A stretch of 34,785 nucleotides of DNA from Fibrobacter sp. (GCA_012523595.1 JAAYIG010000012.1:1-34785); one strand, 5' to 3'. Shown: positions 25,246 through 34,785, numbered from the stretch's first letter. A program made the numbers and translations. The notes: generated by a model from the sequence alone, not told the origin.

Positions 25246-25844
25246 GAGACTTTTAACACAGAAATCTCCCTGAAATAAAGGGAATCTGAAAACATCGATA
25301 TTCAGGTTTTCTTCTCCTTTAAAAGTGCCAACATTTCCTCCAGGTGTTGTCATTGTTGTTCTTCCCTGAACCCTGCTACCAGGGTTGTAATTCTGGAAAG
25401 ATTGGATGTGATCGTTGTAGCTGCAACCCTGAAATTCTAATAAACAGGAAAGCTGGAAAAAACATTGCCCTGGGGAAGGCTTTTTCTGTGCAGAGGGCTG
25501 TTAATATTATTATTATATACCAAACAGCACTTTTTCCCTCAAGGAATCCTGAACCAAGGTAGATGTTTAACTGGCTGGGGGGGGGGTAGTATGAAACAGG
25601 GAGAACCGGTACCCACTGATATTTTTCCGCTTTTTAATAAAGATGGAAAATGTTGCAGATCCCCATTGAAAAAATGCTTCACCTTGGTGTTGGTGTAGTC
25701 TGATGTTTAAAGAAGTGTGCTGTGATGTGGACTATCGGGATGCCGATTGCGGTTTTTTTCTGCTGTATTTCTCTCTTTTATTCAGTAGGGATTCTGATGA
25801 TTCGGTATGTATCATAAAGGTAGAGAGTATATCAGGGGTGAGGG
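25246..25844 (+). promoter_or_regulatory. Long non-coding leader before the VWA operon: competing hairpins and a G10 tract
   Basis: No gene is supported in these 599 bp. Three short elements can pair in two exclusive ways: AACCCTG (25369-25375) with CAGGGTT (25380-25386), or CAGGGTTG (25380-25387) with CAACCCTG (25424-25431). An AT-rich ATTATTATTATATA stretch lies at about 25505-25520. A run of ten G residues lies at 25577-25586. This region must contain the promoter of the four-gene VWA operon, but no convincing -35/-10 pair could be chosen. Confidence 0.4.
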
Positions 25845-28526
25845 ATGGTTATAAACTCTTCAGGGGAAATTAAAAATATGAAAGTGAATCGATTGAACCG
25901 GCTCACTTGCAGGATGTCGGTTTTCTGGGCTTTTATAGCAACCATTTGTATTTCGGGTATGGCTCAGGAAGCTTGTGAATTGTATCTTCAAACCTGCCCT
26001 GAGAATCTTGATAAAGATACGATTTATGTTCCTCCTGAGGTTATCGCGCTGTCATCGAAAATTTACACATGCGATCCTGCCCGGATAATCGAGGGTGTTG
26101 TTGACGGCAGTGCTCCTCCCTCAATTGTTTTTATCATCGATCATTCTTACAGCATGATGGGATGGGGGAATACGTTCCCGGGAAACGATACTTACGGCAG
26201 CAGATTTAAAGTCACCCACGATCTTATCGATACAATTTACAAAGTTCATCCTGATGCGGAAATCGGTCTGGTTGTTTTCAGAGAGGTGCTTTATTTCGAT
26301 CATCGTGATAACAACCTTCTTGTACCGCTGGAGGGTCAGGGTGATCAATCGTTTATGCCTCTGCTGCAGCTAAATCAGAGGGTAAAGGGCAATACGACTG
26401 GTTTGCAGGCATTAAAATCGATTCTTGCAACAGATACGGTTGTCAAGTATGTAGAAACAGATAACCGCGGTAATGTGGAAGCCGTTGATCTGGTTTACAA
26501 ACCTCAGTTTTATACAGAAGGCAACACCAATATCAATAATGCGTTTGCTGCTGCGCTTCAGGCTATGAAGTCAGCCCGCAATCCAAAAGAGCGGCAGTTT
26601 ATCATTTTCCTTTCTGATGGTATACCTCATCCTCCCAATAACAATTCAATGCATGGAGGCAAGGATCCGGAGTATTTCTCTCAGGGTTTGAATACTCCTA
26701 CAACCTTTACGGTTTATCTGAATGACACAGCAAGAGTTCCTCCCCCGGTTTTACAGACTTTAACAGATAATGTCCGGAATAACGGTTATTCTGCTTCAAA
26801 CCCTATGAGCGATATCTGGGTACTTAAAACAGATTATAATGCCCTCATGTCGCTTTTCATGAAAAATGTGATAAAACCGATTTTAACTGTCATTTCAGGT
26901 ACACCTCTTTCCATGGCTGTAAACTCCATCATCTCAGACAGCCTTTCTGACAGCGGATTTGTTTTTACTGAGAGATTCCCTCTTTCAAGCGGTACTACCA
27001 GTTTCAATATCAGAATCAAGTATCATTTGAAAAACAACAACACCGGTGCTCAGAAAGACACCCAGACTGTGTCTACGATATATGTCGTTCGTAAAGAAGG
27101 CGCGGTTCTGCCTTACGATGTGGCCAAGATATGCTGGCAGAGGGGATCGCTTTCTCTTTACCATGGCGTACAGAGGGTGACATTTGTGGATGAGACGATG
27201 AAGAACCTGGAGGTCCGTTTTGATCCGGGTGGCTACAATTACCAGTCTGTTACTGTGCAGGTGACAAACAAGCAGGGTACGACTCTTGATCTGGAAAACC
27301 TTAATCTCGATTTAAAACCATCATACTGGTCGAAGACTTTCCCTCGTGAGATTAAAAAACCGGTAAGAGGCGACAATACTCTTCAGCACGAGATGGTCGA
27401 CAGTATCATAGTAATTTACCGTAATCCGAAACTGCCTCTTGACACACTCAGACTTTCCGTACCATTTGCTATCAGTAAAACAATTACATTCCCTCTGGCC
27501 ACCTATAATGACCGGAATGCCGATGGCTTTGTGGACAGCATCTTCGTGGGAGTGAACGGTGTGTTTTCTCCTGAGGACATTGGTACTTTGGCAGGACTGA
27601 TAACTCTTCCTTCTTCCCGGGGATTCCGTATTGATTCCATAGTGTATGTTCCCGGCGGACTGGTTTACTATGTCAGAGAGAGCGCAGTAATTCCACAGAC
27701 TTCTGTGAACAGTAAAGATGTGATTGTGACAAGGCAGGGTATGCTCCCTGCAGGGGGATTTGTGGCTGATGGTACTATTAACATAGAAGACAGGGTTGCG
27801 CCTGTAATCATAAGTGCTCTTCTTGTGGTAAGTGCCACAGGTGATTCGGTGCAGGTGATCTTCTCTGAGCCGGTGGGTGCATTTTCAAGTTCCAGGCCGT
27901 TTCTGTTCAGGAAACCCGGCGGGGATTCGGTGGTGGTGCATCTTGACATAAACGGAAATCTCAGCAAGGACGGGAGAGCTTATTCTGCCAGGGTTCGACA
28001 GGTGGAAGGCGGCAGTCTCATTTCTGTGGGTGATTCCGTGTGGATAAATCCGGTAGCGTTAATAAGCGACCAATCAGGCAATCAGCAGAAAAACTACCGC
28101 AACCGGCGGGTACAGATTTCATTCAAACAGGTTCCTTATGATCTGATTCCCAGGGTGATAAACAATCCTTTCTCTCCCGGTGATGCCATTCCTCCTGTGG
28201 TTCTGGAGGCATACGCTGATGCCAAAAAACCACTTCCTCAGAAAAGCACCGGTATGGTTATAATGGTTGAGCCTGAGGAGGGTACATTCAGGCCCGGAGT
28301 TAAGCTTTCCGGGAAGGCATCGATTTACGATGTGGTAAAGAATCCCATTATAGAGAATATGCCGATGGTGGAAAAGGATGGGAAACTTTACTATGTCTGG
28401 AATGGATGCAATAGTAAAGGCAGGAAGGTATCGACCGGTACTTATGTAGCGATACTCAGTATGACAGATAACCAGGATCCGCCTGTTTCCAGAAAACAAA
28501 CAATACGTATTGGAGTAAAGAGATGA
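25845..28526 (+). CDS. Large secreted VWA-domain protein with C-terminal FlgD-like domain (paralogue 1)
   Basis: The protein has 893 residues from ATG 25845; ATG 25878 is an equally good start and gives a shorter signal peptide ending SGMA. A cysteine-containing segment (C44, C51, C76) precedes a VWA domain at about 90-345 with MIDAS residues D99-H-S101-Y-S103, T184/T185 and SDG 257-259. Beta-rich domains follow, then a module pair: DRNADGFVD (556-564, calcium-loop-like) and a DRVAPVI...FSEPV...INPV...NRR segment (649-755). The end (about 800-893) is an FlgD-like Ig domain with WNGCNSKGRKVSTGTYVA. It is likely exported and surface-bound. It overlaps the next gene by 4 bp. Function is unknown; metal-dependent adhesion is the usual VWA role. 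Confidence 0.85.
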   Translation: MVINSSGEIKNMKVNRLNRLTCRMSVFWAFIATICISGMAQEACELYLQTCPENLDKDTIYVPPEVIALSSKIYTCDPARIIEGVVDGSAPPSIVFIIDHSYSMMGWGNTFPGNDTYGSRFKVTHDLIDTIYKVHPDAEIGLVVFREVLYFDHRDNNLLVPLEGQGDQSFMPLLQLNQRVKGNTTGLQALKSILATDTVVKYVETDNRGNVEAVDLVYKPQFYTEGNTNINNAFAAALQAMKSARNPKERQFIIFLSDGIPHPPNNNSMHGGKDPEYFSQGLNTPTTFTVYLNDTARVPPPVLQTLTDNVRNNGYSASNPMSDIWVLKTDYNALMSLFMKNVIKPILTVISGTPLSMAVNSIISDSLSDSGFVFTERFPLSSGTTSFNIRIKYHLKNNNTGAQKDTQTVSTIYVVRKEGAVLPYDVAKICWQRGSLSLYHGVQRVTFVDETMKNLEVRFDPGGYNYQSVTVQVTNKQGTTLDLENLNLDLKPSYWSKTFPREIKKPVRGDNTLQHEMVDSIIVIYRNPKLPLDTLRLSVPFAISKTITFPLATYNDRNADGFVDSIFVGVNGVFSPEDIGTLAGLITLPSSRGFRIDSIVYVPGGLVYYVRESAVIPQTSVNSKDVIVTRQGMLPAGGFVADGTINIEDRVAPVIISALLVVSATGDSVQVIFSEPVGAFSSSRPFLFRKPGGDSVVVHLDINGNLSKDGRAYSARVRQVEGGSLISVGDSVWINPVALISDQSGNQQKNYRNRRVQISFKQVPYDLIPRVINNPFSPGDAIPPVVLEAYADAKKPLPQKSTGMVIMVEPEEGTFRPGVKLSGKASIYDVVKNPIIENMPMVEKDGKLYYVWNGCNSKGRKVSTGTYVAILSMTDNQDPPVSRKQTIRIGVKR

Positions 28527-31500
28527 TTAACAAAACCAGGATCTCAGTTATTCTATTCTGCTTTCTCTATGGATTTACCTCCGGCGCTGAGGTATGCAAA
28601 GTACGGCTTGATTGTCCGGGAAATTACAATAATGACACCATGCGTGTGGCGCAGAATGTGGTAGCGTTGAGTGAGAAGTTTTTCCACTGTACACCGGATT
28701 CCTTCAATGAGGGTTTTAATCTGAATCTTGCCGATACTATCTCTCTGTTTTTTGTCATCGACCACTCCGGAAGCATGAGTGTCATGGATTCAACCGGGAT
28801 CAGGTACAGGCTGGTCCAGAGCCTTATTGATACTCTGTTTGCAAAGTCGCCCGCTTCAGAAGTTGGAATAGCGGTTTTTTCAAATCAACTTCTTCACAGT
28901 CACCAGGATGATCCTTTTTTTGTGCAGCTTGATCCCAGATGGCACGATTCATACGTTCCACTTACCCGTCTTGACAGATCAGTGGGTGGAATGAGCGCGG
29001 TCGAGAAACTGAAGTGGGCTGTAAAGATAGCCAGCAATCCTGGTGATACAGATGGTGGAGGGAACCTTCGTTTACTTAATGGGAATTACAGTCCTACCGG
29101 ACGGCTTAACTATTGGGGATTTGATGGGGGATATAACGGCACGACAGATGTAACGCTGGGGCTTGAGGCTGCGCGCAAGGCGTTTCTCTCTGCTTCCTAT
29201 CCCAAAGAGGATCAATATATAGTGTTTCTCTCCGATGGTATCTCACAGTATGTAGATCAGGAGAGGGCCGGGTTTGAGTTCGATTATATTAAGGGTGAGA
29301 ATCTTCCCACAACATTTACCGCGTTTTTTATCAATGTAAACAAGCCTATTCCTGCACAGATTGATTCAATGACAGTCAATATCGCCAAAAACGGTTATTC
29401 AAGCAGGAATCCATCCAGTGAGGTGTGGAAAACTGCTGGAAGTGAGTCTGAGCTGGCGTCAAAACTTGTCGGGCAGCTTTCTCTGGACGGAGGTCCCAGA
29501 TATTTCACCAGTACTCCTGTCAATCTCACCATCAATGGAATCACAACCGAAAACTTCGATGATTCCATTGCTTATCTGCCCAGGATGATCCCTCTTACGG
29601 GTCAATATACAACTTTGGACATTTCCTACACATGGCGGTGGAATTCTCCTCTGGACAGTGTGGCAACAGGCACTTATACCACAGTGGTGATGCAGAGTGA
29701 CAATCCTGATGCTCTTGTGAAAGAGTGCTGGAATCAGGGAGTATTGAAATTCTATTACCAGAACTCTGATATCACATCTCAGACAATAGAGGTGACACAG
29801 AAGACAATCGAGGTCAGGTTTTATCCTCCTGCAGAGCTTGCGCTAACAAGTGCCAGGATCGTGGTCAGGAATGCCGAAGGCACTGATTCTCTTGTACTGG
29901 ATGCAGATAATCAGGGTCAGTATTTTTCCGCAACCTTTACCAGAGAATATGGATCGCCTCTAAATGATAACCTTCTTCAGAATGCTTTCTCCGACAGCCT
30001 GATAGCGATCTACAGGAATCCCGAAGCTCCACTGGATACAGTCAGGATAGCTTCAAAAGTGGCAGAACCGAGAGAAATCGGTGTGAGAATCGCCAGTTAC
30101 ATTGACAGTGATGCAAACGGGTATCCTGATATAATCAGGGTTGTTCAGGGTGCAGAGAAGCTTTCTTCTGCAGACCTCTCTGCCATAACCCCCTATATCA
30201 GCCTTTATACCGAACGTGGAGTTTCCATAAAATCAGTTGATTCTACTGCTGAGGGTTTTGATATAATTCTCAATGAATCTTCCTCGCTGGAGGCTCCGTT
30301 TACCGGGCTTTTTCCTGATGAGAGACTTGTGATTGACAGAGTGGCAGGTCTTCCGAGCGGTGGAGAGTTCCCATTTACAAGTGAACTTCTTGCCGACAGC
30401 ATGGCTCCGGTTATTCTCAAGGCTACCTATTATGATAACGCAGTGTCAGCACTGAGGGATACTCTTGAGGTGTTGTTTTCAGAAAACATCGCTGAAATTT
30501 CGAGCCAGGAGCCGTTTCTTCTGAGAGGCGCCGGTGATACCGAAGACTTCAAGCTGCGACTCTCTCTTATAAGTACCGACAGTAACAGGGCTGTTTTTTC
30601 CGTCGTACCGGTTGCCGGTTTGCAGGAGGTAAAGAAAGGTGATTCGATCCATATCAATCCTCTGGCTGATGTGGCCGATCTTTCCGGCAACATTCAGAGA
30701 AACCCCGGCAATGTACGCAGGAATCTCGATTATTATCTTCTGTACAGTCTAATAACCGCTGCCTATTTTGATACCACGGGTGATGGCCTTATCGATGTGA
30801 TCGAAGTGACCATGGACAGGACACCTGACCCGCAGCTTCTTGAAGAGCTCTATTCGACTGTCGAACTCCCCTCTTACAGGAACTTTTCATATACTCGTGA
30901 GGACTTTACTGCTACAGAAAATGGGTTTACAATTGGTGTAAAGCAGCCGTCGAGCACTGTGCCATGGACTGCTGTTGACGACAGGGATGTTCTGAAAGTG
31001 GCTTACACGGAGGCACCAAACGGAAGTGTGGTAAAGAAAGGCGCAATTCCGATCGCTGACAGTCTGGCACCGGTACTTATCAGTGTGAAATATATCCCGG
31101 GTGAGACAGAAGGTGCGGTGAGAACCGATTCCCTTGTAGCCAGGTTCTCCGAAGAAGTACCTGTTCCTTTGAGCAGTCAGCCCTTTACTTTCTATGATCC
31201 TGTAAAGAATGAAACATATACCATGAATTTGCGTCATGTAAAGAGAAACGCCCCTGATGAGCACGTGTTTTCCATCATCTCGATAGAAGGAAAAGAGTCT
31301 CCGGAGGTAACCGACTCTGCCTCCATAAATCCTGTTGCCGGAGTGATGGATAATACCAAGAATATTCAGGATTCTCCAAACAGGCGTTCGGAACTGATTT
31401 TCGGGCAGCAGGACAACAAATACAGAATTATCTCACTGTCAAACCCCTTTGATCCAATCTCTTCAGTTATTCCCAATCGGGTAAGGAATTACTACGGTAT

Positions 31501-31813
31501 CAAGCAGACAAACGGGCTTATTGTCATTGCCGAGCCGGTCTTTAAACTTGCGGGTCATATCTCTCTTTCCGGTAAAATGGTTATATATGATGCAGTGGGG
31601 AATGTAGTGAACTGCATTGAGAGAAAGAATGTTGCGGAGAGTTCAAAGGGTGTTGCTTTTGTCTGGGATGGGAGGAATGAGAAGGGCAGGCTTGTGGGTG
31701 GCGGGACTTATCTGGCGATGGTATCGATTGAGGACAGCCAGGGTAAAAAGTACGCTCCCAGTAAGCACAAGCTGGGTGTAAAAAGAACCGTCATTTCGGG
31801 GAAAAAAAAATAG
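28523..31813 (+). CDS. Large secreted VWA-domain protein with C-terminal FlgD-like domain (paralogue 2)
   Basis: This 1096-residue protein has a signal peptide ending TSGA and is a paralogue of the preceding gene along its whole length. Cysteines C25, C31 and C56 match the N-terminal pattern of paralogue 1. The VWA domain at about 70-320 has MIDAS D80-H-S82-G-S84 and SDG 237-239. The module pair seen once in paralogue 1 occurs twice here: DSDANGYPD 528-536 with DSMAPVI 625-631, and DTTGDGLID 750-758 with DSLAPVL 846-852. That explains most of the 203 extra residues. The C-terminal FlgD-like domain (about 998-1088) has IYDAVGNVV and WDGRNEKGRLVGGGTYLA. The start overlaps the previous stop (ATGA). 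It is probably a surface protein; partner unknown. Confidence 0.86.
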   Translation: MINKTRISVILFCFLYGFTSGAEVCKVRLDCPGNYNNDTMRVAQNVVALSEKFFHCTPDSFNEGFNLNLADTISLFFVIDHSGSMSVMDSTGIRYRLVQSLIDTLFAKSPASEVGIAVFSNQLLHSHQDDPFFVQLDPRWHDSYVPLTRLDRSVGGMSAVEKLKWAVKIASNPGDTDGGGNLRLLNGNYSPTGRLNYWGFDGGYNGTTDVTLGLEAARKAFLSASYPKEDQYIVFLSDGISQYVDQERAGFEFDYIKGENLPTTFTAFFINVNKPIPAQIDSMTVNIAKNGYSSRNPSSEVWKTAGSESELASKLVGQLSLDGGPRYFTSTPVNLTINGITTENFDDSIAYLPRMIPLTGQYTTLDISYTWRWNSPLDSVATGTYTTVVMQSDNPDALVKECWNQGVLKFYYQNSDITSQTIEVTQKTIEVRFYPPAELALTSARIVVRNAEGTDSLVLDADNQGQYFSATFTREYGSPLNDNLLQNAFSDSLIAIYRNPEAPLDTVRIASKVAEPREIGVRIASYIDSDANGYPDIIRVVQGAEKLSSADLSAITPYISLYTERGVSIKSVDSTAEGFDIILNESSSLEAPFTGLFPDERLVIDRVAGLPSGGEFPFTSELLADSMAPVILKATYYDNAVSALRDTLEVLFSENIAEISSQEPFLLRGAGDTEDFKLRLSLISTDSNRAVFSVVPVAGLQEVKKGDSIHINPLADVADLSGNIQRNPGNVRRNLDYYLLYSLITAAYFDTTGDGLIDVIEVTMDRTPDPQLLEELYSTVELPSYRNFSYTREDFTATENGFTIGVKQPSSTVPWTAVDDRDVLKVAYTEAPNGSVVKKGAIPIADSLAPVLISVKYIPGETEGAVRTDSLVARFSEEVPVPLSSQPFTFYDPVKNETYTMNLRHVKRNAPDEHVFSIISIEGKESPEVTDSASINPVAGVMDNTKNIQDSPNRRSELIFGQQDNKYRIISLSNPFDPISSVIPNRVRNYYGIKQTNGLIVIAEPVFKLAGHISLSGKMVIYDAVGNVVNCIERKNVAESSKGVAFVWDGRNEKGRLVGGGTYLAMVSIEDSQGKKYAPSKHKLGVKRTVISGKKK

Positions 31814-31824
31814 CGGGATAAAAG

Positions 31825-34131
31825 ATGAAAAGAGGAAGATTGTTGTATAGAAGATTTCGGAAATCGATCCGTTTTTTATTGGGGGCGGGTATGATTGCCG
31901 GGGCTTTTTATGGGAGTGTTTATGCTGATGGACTTCCTGGCGAGTTTCTTCTTTCTGATCAGTGGCATACCTTTTTCAAATACTTCTCTCCGATTACAAA
32001 CCCGGCGCTTATGATGGAACAGGTTTATACCTCCATAAGGGGTGTGGGTTCTGTATCTCCCGATGAGGCATCAAAGCTCTGGGAAGTGGGTGCGACTGTT
32101 CCGCTTGGGCTTTACAATTCGGTTGGATTGACCATTGTAGGTGAGAACGGCCGCAATGTTACCGGGTTTGCAGATGAGTCTTTCAGAGACAGTACCACTG
32201 TGAGCAACAATAACTTTCTTTTCATGGCCTCTTTTGCTTCAAATCCTATAGGGAGGCTGTGTGTGGGAGTGAATATAAACGGTGCCTTTCAGGAAAATTT
32301 CGGAGATAATCCGTCTTTTGGACTGGGGATAGATTTGGGTGTGAGCTACCGATTGCTTTATCATCCGCTGTTCGGGTTTCACCTGGTTGGATTTACTTTC
32401 CAGAACGTTGTGGCTCCCAGTCTGAATCTGACTGAAAAAATGCCTCATTCATCTCAGATAAAAGCCCTTTATCATGCTGCTTTTTTGCAGAATAAACTGG
32501 AGTTGGATCTTCAGTGCGATGTTACCGATTTCATGTCAAAGGCCGAATCCTATCTCAAGGAAAAGAAGGTTGAATGGGATATGTTTATACAGGCGGGGTT
32601 CTGGCCGCTTCCATATTTTGCGCTGAGGGCCTTTACAGACTACGGGGATTCCAGAAAAATAGAATATCTGGGGCTGGGTCTGGAGATCAATGTTCCTCAG
32701 GTAAATGGCGGAAGGGATTGCTCGGTGCTTTACCAGTACCGCAATGAACTCAGCAGTAACCTTCAGCCGTCACACTCCCTATATTTCCGTGCCGATGTGG
32801 GATCAAGCCGTGAGGAGATGCGGGTCAGAAAGATAGCCAGAATTGCGAGTCTTACAGCCAATGAACTTTACAACAGAGCAATGAAGGCTTACTACAAAGG
32901 AGATTTCTGGAATGCCTATCTTCTTTTCATGCGGATACTGACAGAGTTTCCTGATTTCTATAAAAATGACGTAGTCACTTATCATGCCGGGTCCTGTCTT
33001 GAAGAAATGGACATGCGGGAGGAAGCGATTAAGACCTACATATCCGTGAAGGATAACTTTGGCATGAGCAGTCAGGTCCCTCTGGCTGATCTGGGACTCA
33101 TGAGAATTTATTATCGTCAGGGAGCTTTCAGTGCGGTTGGAAACCAGTTTGTGGAGCTTAACAAACCAGGAGTACCGGATTCGATACGTTTTCACGGATG
33201 TTATATAATGGGGGAGACAGAGCTGAGGCAATCGGAAAACCGAAAGGCTCTTCAGTACTTTGAAATCGTTCCGGGAGACCATCCTGCCTATGTTTTTGCA
33301 CAGCACACTTCTTCAACTGCTCATGCACTGCTTAATTCAGGTATGCACATAGTGGCAGCGAGTCTGGAGAACTGTGTGGCATCGAAGGTTGTTACTAGGG
33401 AGCAGAAGGAGATAGTGAACCGTTCACTTGTTCTGCTGGGGTACATCTTTTATGAGGAAAATGCTCTTTCCAAAGCGGTATCTGCGTTGCGGATGGTTCC
33501 TCCGGAGAGCTACTACTATCCTGATGCACTTCTGGGGCTTGGATGGACTGCCATTAAAGCCCGTCAGTGGAATGATTGTGTCGCGGCCGGACAGTCTCTG
33601 GCACAGGCCAGCGGCAAGTTTATAATGCAGTGTGAAGGTGCCCTTCTCCAGGCTTATGGTCTTATACTGCAGAAAAAGTACGATCAGGCCGATCTTCTGC
33701 TCAGGCCGATGTTAGACAGAATGAGAAATTATCCCGGACTGCTTGAGGATTCTCTGAATACCGAAAAGCTGCGCTATGAAAGTGACCGTATCTCCTACGC
33801 TTTTCTTGCGGAAAGAGTTACAAATGCGGCCCGGAAGGGACAATCTGTAAAGCAGACTGAAATTGACAGTTTGCACAACGAGCAGATCAGTTACAAAGAC
33901 AGAATAGATAAATTCCTGGTATTTGCGGATGAATTCAAGAGAACGACTTTCTTCGAAAGAAATATCGGAGCGCTGAGAGAGGACATGGAGTATGCTCTGG
34001 CTACGGTGCAGAAAATCCTGGGTTCATCTGACTATCTGAAAACGAGGGAAAAAATGATGCATAAGGACAAGGCTATTACAAATGAAATAGAAAAACTCAA
34101 AGAGGAGATGATGCAACTTGAAAACAAATAA
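31825..34131 (+). CDS. PorV-like outer-membrane barrel fused to a TPR domain
   Basis: This 768-residue protein has a signal peptide ending GSVYA (about residue 34). Residues 35-330 are rich in alternating, aromatic-ended strands (VGATVPLGLYNSVGLTIVG, LGIDLGVSYRLLYHPLFGFH, YLGLGLEINV) and include SPITNPAL near the start, like PorV/PorQ-family barrels. From about 345 the character changes to TPR helices (LYNRAMKAYYKGDFWNAYLL, AVSALRMVPPESYYYPDALLG). The last 70 residues are charged helix (about 690-768: MHKDKAITNEIEKLKEEM). A barrel with a periplasmic TPR arm would suit assembly or anchoring of the two VWA proteins encoded just upstream (11-bp gap). The barrel call rests on pattern, not a search. 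Confidence 0.7.
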   Translation: MKRGRLLYRRFRKSIRFLLGAGMIAGAFYGSVYADGLPGEFLLSDQWHTFFKYFSPITNPALMMEQVYTSIRGVGSVSPDEASKLWEVGATVPLGLYNSVGLTIVGENGRNVTGFADESFRDSTTVSNNNFLFMASFASNPIGRLCVGVNINGAFQENFGDNPSFGLGIDLGVSYRLLYHPLFGFHLVGFTFQNVVAPSLNLTEKMPHSSQIKALYHAAFLQNKLELDLQCDVTDFMSKAESYLKEKKVEWDMFIQAGFWPLPYFALRAFTDYGDSRKIEYLGLGLEINVPQVNGGRDCSVLYQYRNELSSNLQPSHSLYFRADVGSSREEMRVRKIARIASLTANELYNRAMKAYYKGDFWNAYLLFMRILTEFPDFYKNDVVTYHAGSCLEEMDMREEAIKTYISVKDNFGMSSQVPLADLGLMRIYYRQGAFSAVGNQFVELNKPGVPDSIRFHGCYIMGETELRQSENRKALQYFEIVPGDHPAYVFAQHTSSTAHALLNSGMHIVAASLENCVASKVVTREQKEIVNRSLVLLGYIFYEENALSKAVSALRMVPPESYYYPDALLGLGWTAIKARQWNDCVAAGQSLAQASGKFIMQCEGALLQAYGLILQKKYDQADLLLRPMLDRMRNYPGLLEDSLNTEKLRYESDRISYAFLAERVTNAARKGQSVKQTEIDSLHNEQISYKDRIDKFLVFADEFKRTTFFERNIGALREDMEYALATVQKILGSSDYLKTREKMMHKDKAITNEIEKLKEEMMQLENK

Positions 34132-34141
34132 GGGAGGGGTT

Positions 34142-34684
34142 ATGCTGTTAAAAGCATTGTTTTTGGTACCGGTTCTGGTGTCCTTCGCAGCAGCCGCATA
34201 TGATATTGACCTTTCGGGAACGGTCACAAACAAGTCCGGAGCGGTGCTCAAAGATGTTATCGTGACTCTTGAGGGGAAAGATGTCAGAAGTATCACCAAT
34301 TCATCCGGGAAGTACAGTATTCAGGTTGTTCCGGTGGTGCGTCCTCTGATTTCACCGGTCAGTTCGGATTTTTCTGTTCTCAAGAATGGAAACATGGTTT
34401 TTTCAGTTCAGAGTAAGATGCCTGTCAGGATCGATGTTTTCGATCTCAGAGGAAGACTGGTAAATGTTGCTGTCAACAGGGTTCTTCCTGCCGGTTCTCA
34501 CAGTGTCAAATTAAGCAATGCGGGCACAGTTGGCAGTGTCTTTCTGATCAGGGTGAGAATGGGTGACAAAGTTTCATTGTACAAGTACATGTCACTTGAT
34601 CATTCTGTGCAGAGAATTTCGGTTCAGGGCGGAAATGCGGCTTCATCAATTGCAAAACTTTTTGCCTCAGTTGGAGAGTGCTGA
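34142..34684 (+). CDS. Small secreted protein with carboxypeptidase-regulatory-like and sorting-tail-like domains
   Basis: The protein has 180 residues from ATG 34142, chosen over ATG 34118 because GGGAGGGG lies just before it and the product then starts with a clean signal peptide (MLLKALFLVPVLVSFAAAA). Next comes a short carboxypeptidase-regulatory-like beta segment (LSGTVTNKSGAVLKDVIVTL, SGKYSIQVVP). Then a domain like type IX secretion tails or FlgD Ig domains follows (IDVFDLRGRLVN, LPAGSHSVKLS, VFLIRVRMGDKVSLYKYMSL). It is unusual in that the tail-like domain is not terminal: about 28 more residues follow, ending in GEC. It is the last gene of the VWA operon, 10 bp after the barrel-TPR gene. 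Function unknown. Confidence 0.78.
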   Translation: MLLKALFLVPVLVSFAAAAYDIDLSGTVTNKSGAVLKDVIVTLEGKDVRSITNSSGKYSIQVVPVVRPLISPVSSDFSVLKNGNMVFSVQSKMPVRIDVFDLRGRLVNVAVNRVLPAGSHSVKLSNAGTVGSVFLIRVRMGDKVSLYKYMSLDHSVQRISVQGGNAASSIAKLFASVGEC

Positions 34685-34692
34685 AAAATTTG

Positions 34693-34756
34693 TGTAAACC
34701 TCAGAATAGTTGGTGTATGGATTATTTTAACCACTTAACACCAATGGAGGTTTACA
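34693..34756 (+). promoter_or_regulatory. Two-tier hairpin containing the ribosome-binding site of the next gene
   Basis: Outer arms TGTAAACCTC (34693-34702) and GAGGTTTACA (34747-34756) pair perfectly over 10 bp. Inner arms TTGGTGT (34710-34716) and ACACCAA (34738-34744) pair over 7 bp. GGAGG at 34746-34750, 9 bp before the ATG at 34760, lies almost entirely in the outer right arm, so folding would block it. It could also be a palindrome at the end of a mobile element. Confidence 0.5.
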
Positions 34757-34759
34757 GTT

Positions 34760-34785
34760 ATGGCCAGAAAAGAACATGGTAATCC
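34760..34785 (+). CDS. Start of a further gene, cut by the right edge
   Basis: An ATG with a good GGAGG upstream opens a frame reading MARKEHGN before the window ends. Eight residues are too few to identify a family. The hairpin in front, with the basic MARK start, is compatible with REP-associated tyrosine transposases, but many unrelated proteins begin this way. Confidence 0.45.

Follow-up and report, generated by a model that had tools for sequence, protein, structure and literature searches.

Fibrobacterota are little-studied polymer degraders, and their means of gripping polymers such as cellulose and chitin has long been a matter of question. Four joined genes, g1 to g4, close a contig of Fibrobacter sp. 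(GCA_012523595.1, JAAYIG010000012.1:1-34785; contig C12 of the 4.1-Mb draft genome G000). The whole contig, 34,785 nucleotides in length, was analysed and is termed the window. What do these four genes make, and how would their products act together? The operon is proposed to encode two VWA adhesins with a metal-ion-dependent adhesion site (MIDAS), an outer-membrane carrier or anchor of their own, in which a predicted β-barrel is fused to tetratricopeptide repeats (TPRs), and a fourth secreted accessory protein. The reading favoured here, to which a probability of roughly 0.6 is assigned, is that the barrel-TPR protein g3 serves as the cognate outer-membrane carrier or anchor of g1 and g2, themselves exported by the type IX secretion system (T9SS), and resembles PorP/SprF in its action. 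It probably exports or holds just these two adhesins.

Architecture and conservation of the locus

The four open reading frames (ORFs) are arranged in one direction, and the four-gene operon is real. Genes g1 and g2 share the 4 bp ATGA (28523-28526), 11 bp separate g2 from g3 (31814-31824) and 10 bp separate g3 from g4 (34132-34141). Ribosome-binding-like sequences precede the four start codons, and the N-termini of the products are signal-peptide-like, as judged by eye. An earlier reading of this DNA made from the sequence alone (the sequence-only reading) had reported the same overlap and gaps and had assigned signal peptides to all products, and both descriptions are recovered here. The order VWA-VWA-barrelTPR-g4, including the 4-bp overlap of the VWA genes, is found again in two other genera, represented by three genomes (G006, G009 and G015; loci L129, L137 and L148), and the first three genes, with the same overlap, are found within the same genus (L044). 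By our own count across 41 genomes, 23 of the 35 best VWA relatives have a barrel-TPR gene no more than 10 kb away, against a chance expectation of about 1, and the remaining 12 lie far from any such gene. The recurrence of order and overlap is far above chance. The sequence-only reading had held that it would fall if these genes were never linked in relatives; the neighbourhood survey instead reveals conserved linkage.

The VWA_2 model exceeds the Pfam cut-off in both g1 and g2, and all five residues of the MIDAS pattern DxSxS...T...D are invariant in an alignment of 8 homologues, which supports the earlier assignment of these proteins as putative MIDAS adhesins. The start of g1 was moved to 25878 by homology with the sister species (L044), the ORF being open from 25845. 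Among cassette proteins the alignment shows a FlgD-like tail kept at the extreme C-terminus. The g2 tail bears a weak similarity to PorU, the T9SS sortase, in the C-terminal domain of that protein (NF033707 positions 1023-1092, E 4.5e-4); profile searches of g2 returned weak matches to PorU/PorZ C-terminal regions, and a low-confidence model of g1 has PorU among its fold matches. Judged from these comparisons and models, the g1 and g2 tails appear to resemble the PorU C-terminal domain. When the VWA alignment was used to search the sequences of solved structures, nothing matched.

For g3, AlphaFold2 predicts 14 antiparallel strands followed by TPR helices and a coiled coil (predicted local distance difference test, pLDDT, 82 on average). 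Foldseek identified PorV in the T9SS translocon (6h3i_F and 8gl6_F) and FadL as the best matches of the barrel, the PorV match having a template modelling (TM) score of 0.59 by PorV length; that chain F is PorV was checked via the fold match of the genome's own PorV. FadL-type barrels have both of their ends on the periplasmic side, and the TPR arm is for this reason tentatively placed there. The corresponding search of solved structures by means of the g3 alignment recovered TPR proteins only. PorP_SprF (PF11751) had no match in g3 at E<=1 and none in 13 genomes, the model being equally silent in the control. By sequence, g3 is classed as only a remote relative of PorV and not as PorP/SprF; the predicted strands, the PorV/FadL fold matches and the TPR arm agree with the PorV-like outer-membrane barrel and TPR fusion of the sequence-only reading.

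The genome that contains the window encodes SprA/Sov, PorV and PorU. SprA/Sov and the PorV family both score above cut-off in 13/13 genomes tried, PorU is detected at full length (538 bits) and also matches the solved PorU structure, and the genome's PorV matches a solved structure by fold search. The GldM model found nothing, and the same model was silent in the control. An FGE-sulfatase-domain protein is encoded beside SprA (L211:8632-9822); this domain presumably represents the fold class of GldK/PorK, and the protein is a possible GldK/PorK counterpart. At another locus, an 818-aa protein (L210:3016-5472) combines a PorV barrel with propeller repeats and a PorZ-like segment and is followed by a T9SS-dependent M6-like protein; in Porphyromonas the PorZ and PorV parts are separate proteins. 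A T9SS was proposed earlier for the superphylum and for Fibrobacter (PMC6851124, PMC11205867), and work on Chitinispirillum drew attention to Por sorting domains (PMC4814513).

The barrel-TPR family and the role proposed for g3

Members of the barrel-TPR family were found in 41/41 relatives searched, and a single genome gave as many as nine matches. When 85,000 species were scanned with a pattern, the loci retrieved were labelled as Fibrobacterota or its subgroups, apart from one bacterial bin. In the neighbourhood survey 93 members were classed by partner, using a strict rule for tail proteins and including some loci cut by contig ends. The partner is a VWA protein in 16 cases, a fibro-slime/PA14 or giant TPR protein in 8, and another tail protein in 6, some of which have a VWA-model match lacking a clear MIDAS motif or are contig-cut; a further 12 members lie in a motor locus. 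The barrel tree, a quick tree with some long branches, groups by partner type (22 label changes vs 54 in shuffles). The window clade comprises 18 barrels, 11 with VWA and 5 with other tail partners, and is supported at 100% by the Shimodaira-Hasegawa-like approximate likelihood-ratio test (SH-aLRT). The g3 family is a multi-paralogue family in which each clade has its own partner set, a feature that the sequence-only reading had missed.

Two further arrangements were observed within the family. At L034:6790-9820 a family barrel is fused to an OmpA domain, not to TPRs, and a fibro-slime/PA14 protein follows directly; in this fusion one periplasmic module has naturally been exchanged for another. 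At L036 and its orthologues (L057, L073 and others) a conserved pair of small beta-helix proteins, in which no tail was recognised, is encoded 5' of the barrel-TPR gene, and in several genomes this pair adjoins a HisRS-like gene and FliD/FliS-like genes.

The motor locus of the same genome (L037, G000:C105:67000-84000) encodes an OmpA-beta-helix protein, a divergent barrel-TPR protein, a 1246-aa TPR protein, ExbB, two ExbD and a GltG-like TonB protein (GltG E 3e-31). This paralogous locus has motor genes of the AglRQS-GltG type, and the window operon has none. The equivalent locus from a different family of the phylum (L183) encodes products of 55.9, 83.9, 146.4 and 22.2 kDa, and the F. succinogenes proteins FSU_2396, 2397, 2398 and 2400 have masses of 55.97, 83.84, 146.67 and 23.06 kDa. 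From gene order and mass, not sequence, we infer that this type of motor locus corresponds to FSU_2396-2402. Levels of FSU_2396 and 2397 are higher on cellulose, and both proteins have been detected in a complex that also contains cellulases and a fibro-slime protein (PMC6851124).

The assignment of g3 as a cognate carrier or anchor was made because its gene follows those of the adhesins, as in the SprB-SprF-type pairs of Flavobacterium, in which the neighbouring adhesin depends on the downstream barrel to be secreted and anchored (PMC12618676). It is supported by the conserved linkage of VWA and barrel-TPR genes, by partner types that follow the barrel tree, and by a correlation of barrel distances with those of the adjacent tails (Mantel r 0.60, and 0.48 for TPR vs tail). 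The predicted PorV-like fold, the matches of some family members to the PorV/PorQ model, the encoded T9SS and the similarity of the g1 and g2 tails to PorU also speak for it. In the mechanism envisaged, g1, g2 and g4 would pass the inner membrane through Sec, as their signal peptides suggest. The FlgD-like tails of g1 and g2 would then act as the secretion or targeting signal for the encoded T9SS machinery, with SprA/Sov as the channel. By analogy with PorP/SprF of Flavobacterium, the g3 barrel may dock at this channel, bind the tails and carry or hold the adhesins at the surface. Its TPR arm could tie the loaded carrier to other envelope proteins, the candidates being peptidoglycan-bound OmpA-type proteins, large TPR scaffolds and an Agl/Glt-like ExbB-ExbD-GltG motor. 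At the cell exterior the VWA domains, in which the metal-binding motif is present, would bind substrate or a cell surface via a metal ion.

Several observations weigh against this assignment. The sequence of g3 itself has no match to the PorV/PorQ model (NF033709), which is matched by only 9/30 family members, all under the curated cut-off (best E 3e-7), and the periplasmic position suggested for the TPR arm follows from the predicted fold. The curated type A/B T9SS sorting-tail models match none of g1, g2 and g4 (E<=1), and the FlgD_ig matches in g1 and g2 stay under the Pfam cut-off; of the type IX link made in the sequence-only reading, the part that stands is the presence of SprA/Sov, PorV and PorU, and the part that does not is a recognised sorting tail. 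The structure model of the g1 VWA is poor (mean pLDDT 64) and was used as a hint only. The largest partner group (31/93) consists of one to three small beta-helix proteins, and the FlgD-like tail model matched no gene of these cassettes; carrying tails is therefore not the general job of the family. Another 20/93 members have no recognised partner, some of them being at contig ends. The Mantel correlations of barrel, TPR and tail distances still include shared ancestry.

It is possible, though on balance unlikely, that g3 acts solely as a structural anchor: SprA and general PorV would export the adhesins, and the g3 TPRs would link them to OmpA, to large TPR proteins and to the cell wall. General PorV genes are present, and such an arrangement would be like that of Fibrobacter cellulose-adhesion complexes, one of which in F. 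succinogenes joins OmpA, TPR and fibro-slime proteins (PMC6851124). In the motor clade, the barrel-TPR gene lies between the OmpA-beta-helix and giant TPR genes, with masses that match FSU_2396-2398. Against an anchor alone, each adhesin cassette has its own barrel and partner type tracks barrel clade, a pattern that fits carrying and anchoring alike. Less probable still is a gliding or traction machine in which an Agl/Glt-like motor contacts the TPR arm and moves the adhesins along the cell. The motor locus, which has ExbB, two ExbD and the GltG-like TonB gene, does include a paralogous barrel-TPR gene, Agl/Glt core homologues were reported in Fibrobacter (PMC3169522), and SprF joins the adhesin to the track in Flavobacterium (PMC12635249). 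However, the motor genes occupy a different locus with a different barrel-TPR, the Cys-x-Cys motif known from SprF is missing from the g3 tail, and flagellin and FliD/FliS-like genes near other cassettes indicate that motility may be flagellar.

A single chain that holds both TPRs and a barrel, with FadL structures among its fold matches, could also represent a stand-alone exporter of the Slam, PgaA or BcsC type or a FadL-type transporter, which its neighbours would use as a secretion pore. Exporters of this kind have N-terminal TPRs followed by a C-terminal barrel. In g3 the order is reversed, with the barrel first, and no polysaccharide synthase or lipoprotein substrate adjoins it; the T9SS carrier PorV ranks among the best barrel matches, whereas Slam, PgaA and BcsC chains are missing from the top 50, so this explanation is very improbable. 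That the four genes are mere neighbours with no joint function finds some support in the 12 unlinked VWA relatives, yet it is hard to credit given an order and overlap that repeat in other genera. The cognate-carrier reading may be extended to a hybrid envelope machine in Fibrobacterota, combining SprA export, cargo-specific PorV-TPR carriers and ExbB-ExbD-GltG power instead of GldLM. This extension is speculative and rather unlikely; if true, adhesins for polymer attachment would be exported and pulled by the motor known from Myxococcus gliding.

The interrupted fourth gene and the flanking sequence

Coordinates of all features are given in Table 1. The gene g4 is a larger gene of ~450-480 aa disrupted here by an IS256-like element, and it is because of this insertion that the contig stops and g4 looks small. 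Beyond the junction the g4 frame happens to stay open within the inserted sequence, as far as a stop at 34684. The final 110 bp of the window are multicopy and recur at several contig ends of the same genome, an imperfect inverted repeat of ~27 bp is common to both outer ends of the split g4 insertion, and a Transposase_mut (Mutator-family) gene is linked to one copy of the insertion sequence. The missing C-terminal part of g4 is located on contig C220 and is 66% identical to the orthologue in genome G010. Intact orthologues are about 450-550 aa in length, and in the same-genus sister genome G001 g3 is followed by a 480-aa g4 (identity to the window of 75% for a g3 fragment and 56% for g4). 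A genuine small fourth component, the small tail-domain protein of the sequence-only reading, is ruled out by the target duplication, the multicopy end, the remainder on C220 and the intact orthologue. The tail-like domain of g4 is internal in the intact orthologues, and the protein therefore has no terminal sorting tail; the earlier claim of FlgD- or sorting-tail-like domains in three products survives only for g1 and g2. Since the insertion breaks g4 in the sequenced genome, either the adhesin-carrier part is independent of g4 or the population was mixed. A plasmid search with the contig end gave a single chance match.

Intact g4 proteins (L137:10326-11987 and L195:8373-9815) contain a C-terminal domain of ~250 residues that no Pfam model covers, with the pattern YFWGxLxGxxxPLVKITHAVS...GYACLGPFGGDG...; one of them ends with a long Asp/Ser repeat.

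Upstream, ~600 bp 5' of g1 are free of co-directional genes. A sigma-70-type consensus scan of this region gave no match on the + strand and one on the - strand that was not above shuffles. The ZIP zinc transporter gene was considered as the metal source for the MIDAS sites and dropped as a coincidence, because it ends ~600 bp before g1 and another gene intervenes in the sister species.

Table 1. Features of the operon and its flanks, in window coordinates.
Feature	Coordinates	Strand	Basis
Upstream intergenic region, after ZIP transporter gene; presumed promoter region of operon	25246..25877	+	
g1, VWA adhesin, about 882 aa; signal-peptide-like start, VWA, Ig-like stalk, FlgD-like tail	25878..28526	+	
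g1 VWA domain, complete MIDAS D99-x-S101-x-S103, T228, D258 (numbered from 25845)	26121..26879	+	Pfam VWA_2, 2.3e-6
g1 C-terminal FlgD-like tail, YxWNGxNxxGRxVxxGTYxA...IGVKR	28251..28523	+	FlgD_ig, E 0.0044, under curated cut-off
g2, second VWA adhesin, 1096 aa, 4-bp overlap with g1	28523..31813	+	
g2 VWA domain with MIDAS; right boundary approximate	28748..29500	+	Pfam VWA_2, 4.4e-7
g2 C-terminal FlgD-like tail	31565..31810	+	FlgD_ig, 1.8e-5, under cut-off
g3, barrel-TPR protein, 768 aa	31825..34131	+	
g3 residues 69-325, predicted 14-strand PorV/FadL-type beta-barrel	32029..32799	+	AlphaFold2 model, DSSP, Foldseek
g3 residues 329-767, TPR helices and C-terminal coiled coil, putatively periplasmic	32809..34125	+	
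g4, first ~177 codons of ~450-480-aa secreted protein with CarboxypepD_reg domain; interrupted	34142..34673	+	
9-bp target-site duplication CCTCAGTTG	34665..34673	.	Second copy at G000:C220:125-133
End of IS256-like (Mutator-family) insertion sequence, breaks g4 and ends contig	34674..34785	+	Multicopy, inverted repeat, linked transposase

Comparison with known systems

The TPR and OmpA proteins of Fibrobacter surface complexes have so far been without a structural role. The barrel-TPR family offers one, that of an outer-membrane carrier with a periplasmic arm, present in several copies, each with its own adhesin type. This suggests that the carrier-per-adhesin logic of the Bacteroidota T9SS is present in another phylum, built from different parts, and a link of export to a Glt-like motor becomes testable.

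The sequence-only reading knew of no described operon with this gene set, and an analogue does exist in the PorP/SprF carriers encoded downstream of Bacteroidota adhesins (PMC12618676, PMC9143113). As with SprF-SprB and Fjoh_3951-Fjoh_3952 (PMC12618676, PMC9143113, PMC12635249), the barrel gene lies directly 3' of a large adhesin gene, here after an 11-bp gap, several paralogous pairs occur per genome and a T9SS is present. The C-terminal domain of type B adhesins is the export signal, and the g1 and g2 tails may by analogy play this part. In contrast to PorP/SprF, the g3 barrel is PorV/FadL-like, bears a fused 440-residue TPR arm and lacks the Cys-x-Cys tail motif, and the type B model does not match the FlgD-like g1 and g2 tails. 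PorV/PorQ (NF033709; PDB 6h3i chain F) share with g3 the predicted 14-strand barrel, as seen in the Foldseek match, but g3 is fused to TPRs and has many paralogues with their own operon partners, and ordinary PorV genes coexist with it.

The F. succinogenes genes FSU_2396-2404 (OmpA, TPR, TPR, ExbB, ExbD; PMC6851124, PMC4619616, PMC8092306) would contain a divergent clade of the barrel-TPR family, with a motor and an OmpA protein in place of the VWA adhesins; in the accessible parts of these reports its TPR protein is not described as a barrel. The Myxococcus Agl/Glt system (PMC3169522) resembles the paralogous locus in its ExbB-ExbD-ExbD set, GltG-like TonB, TPR and barrel proteins. The window operon differs in having no motor gene and in joining barrel and TPRs in one chain. 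A MIDAS VWA domain on a surface protein, as in g1 and g2, is also found in SpaC of Lactobacillus pili, Mfa5 of P. gingivalis and Bd0875 of Bdellovibrio (PMC7835359, PMC11003981); unlike these, g1 and g2 are not pilins and combine a FlgD-like tail with a cognate barrel.

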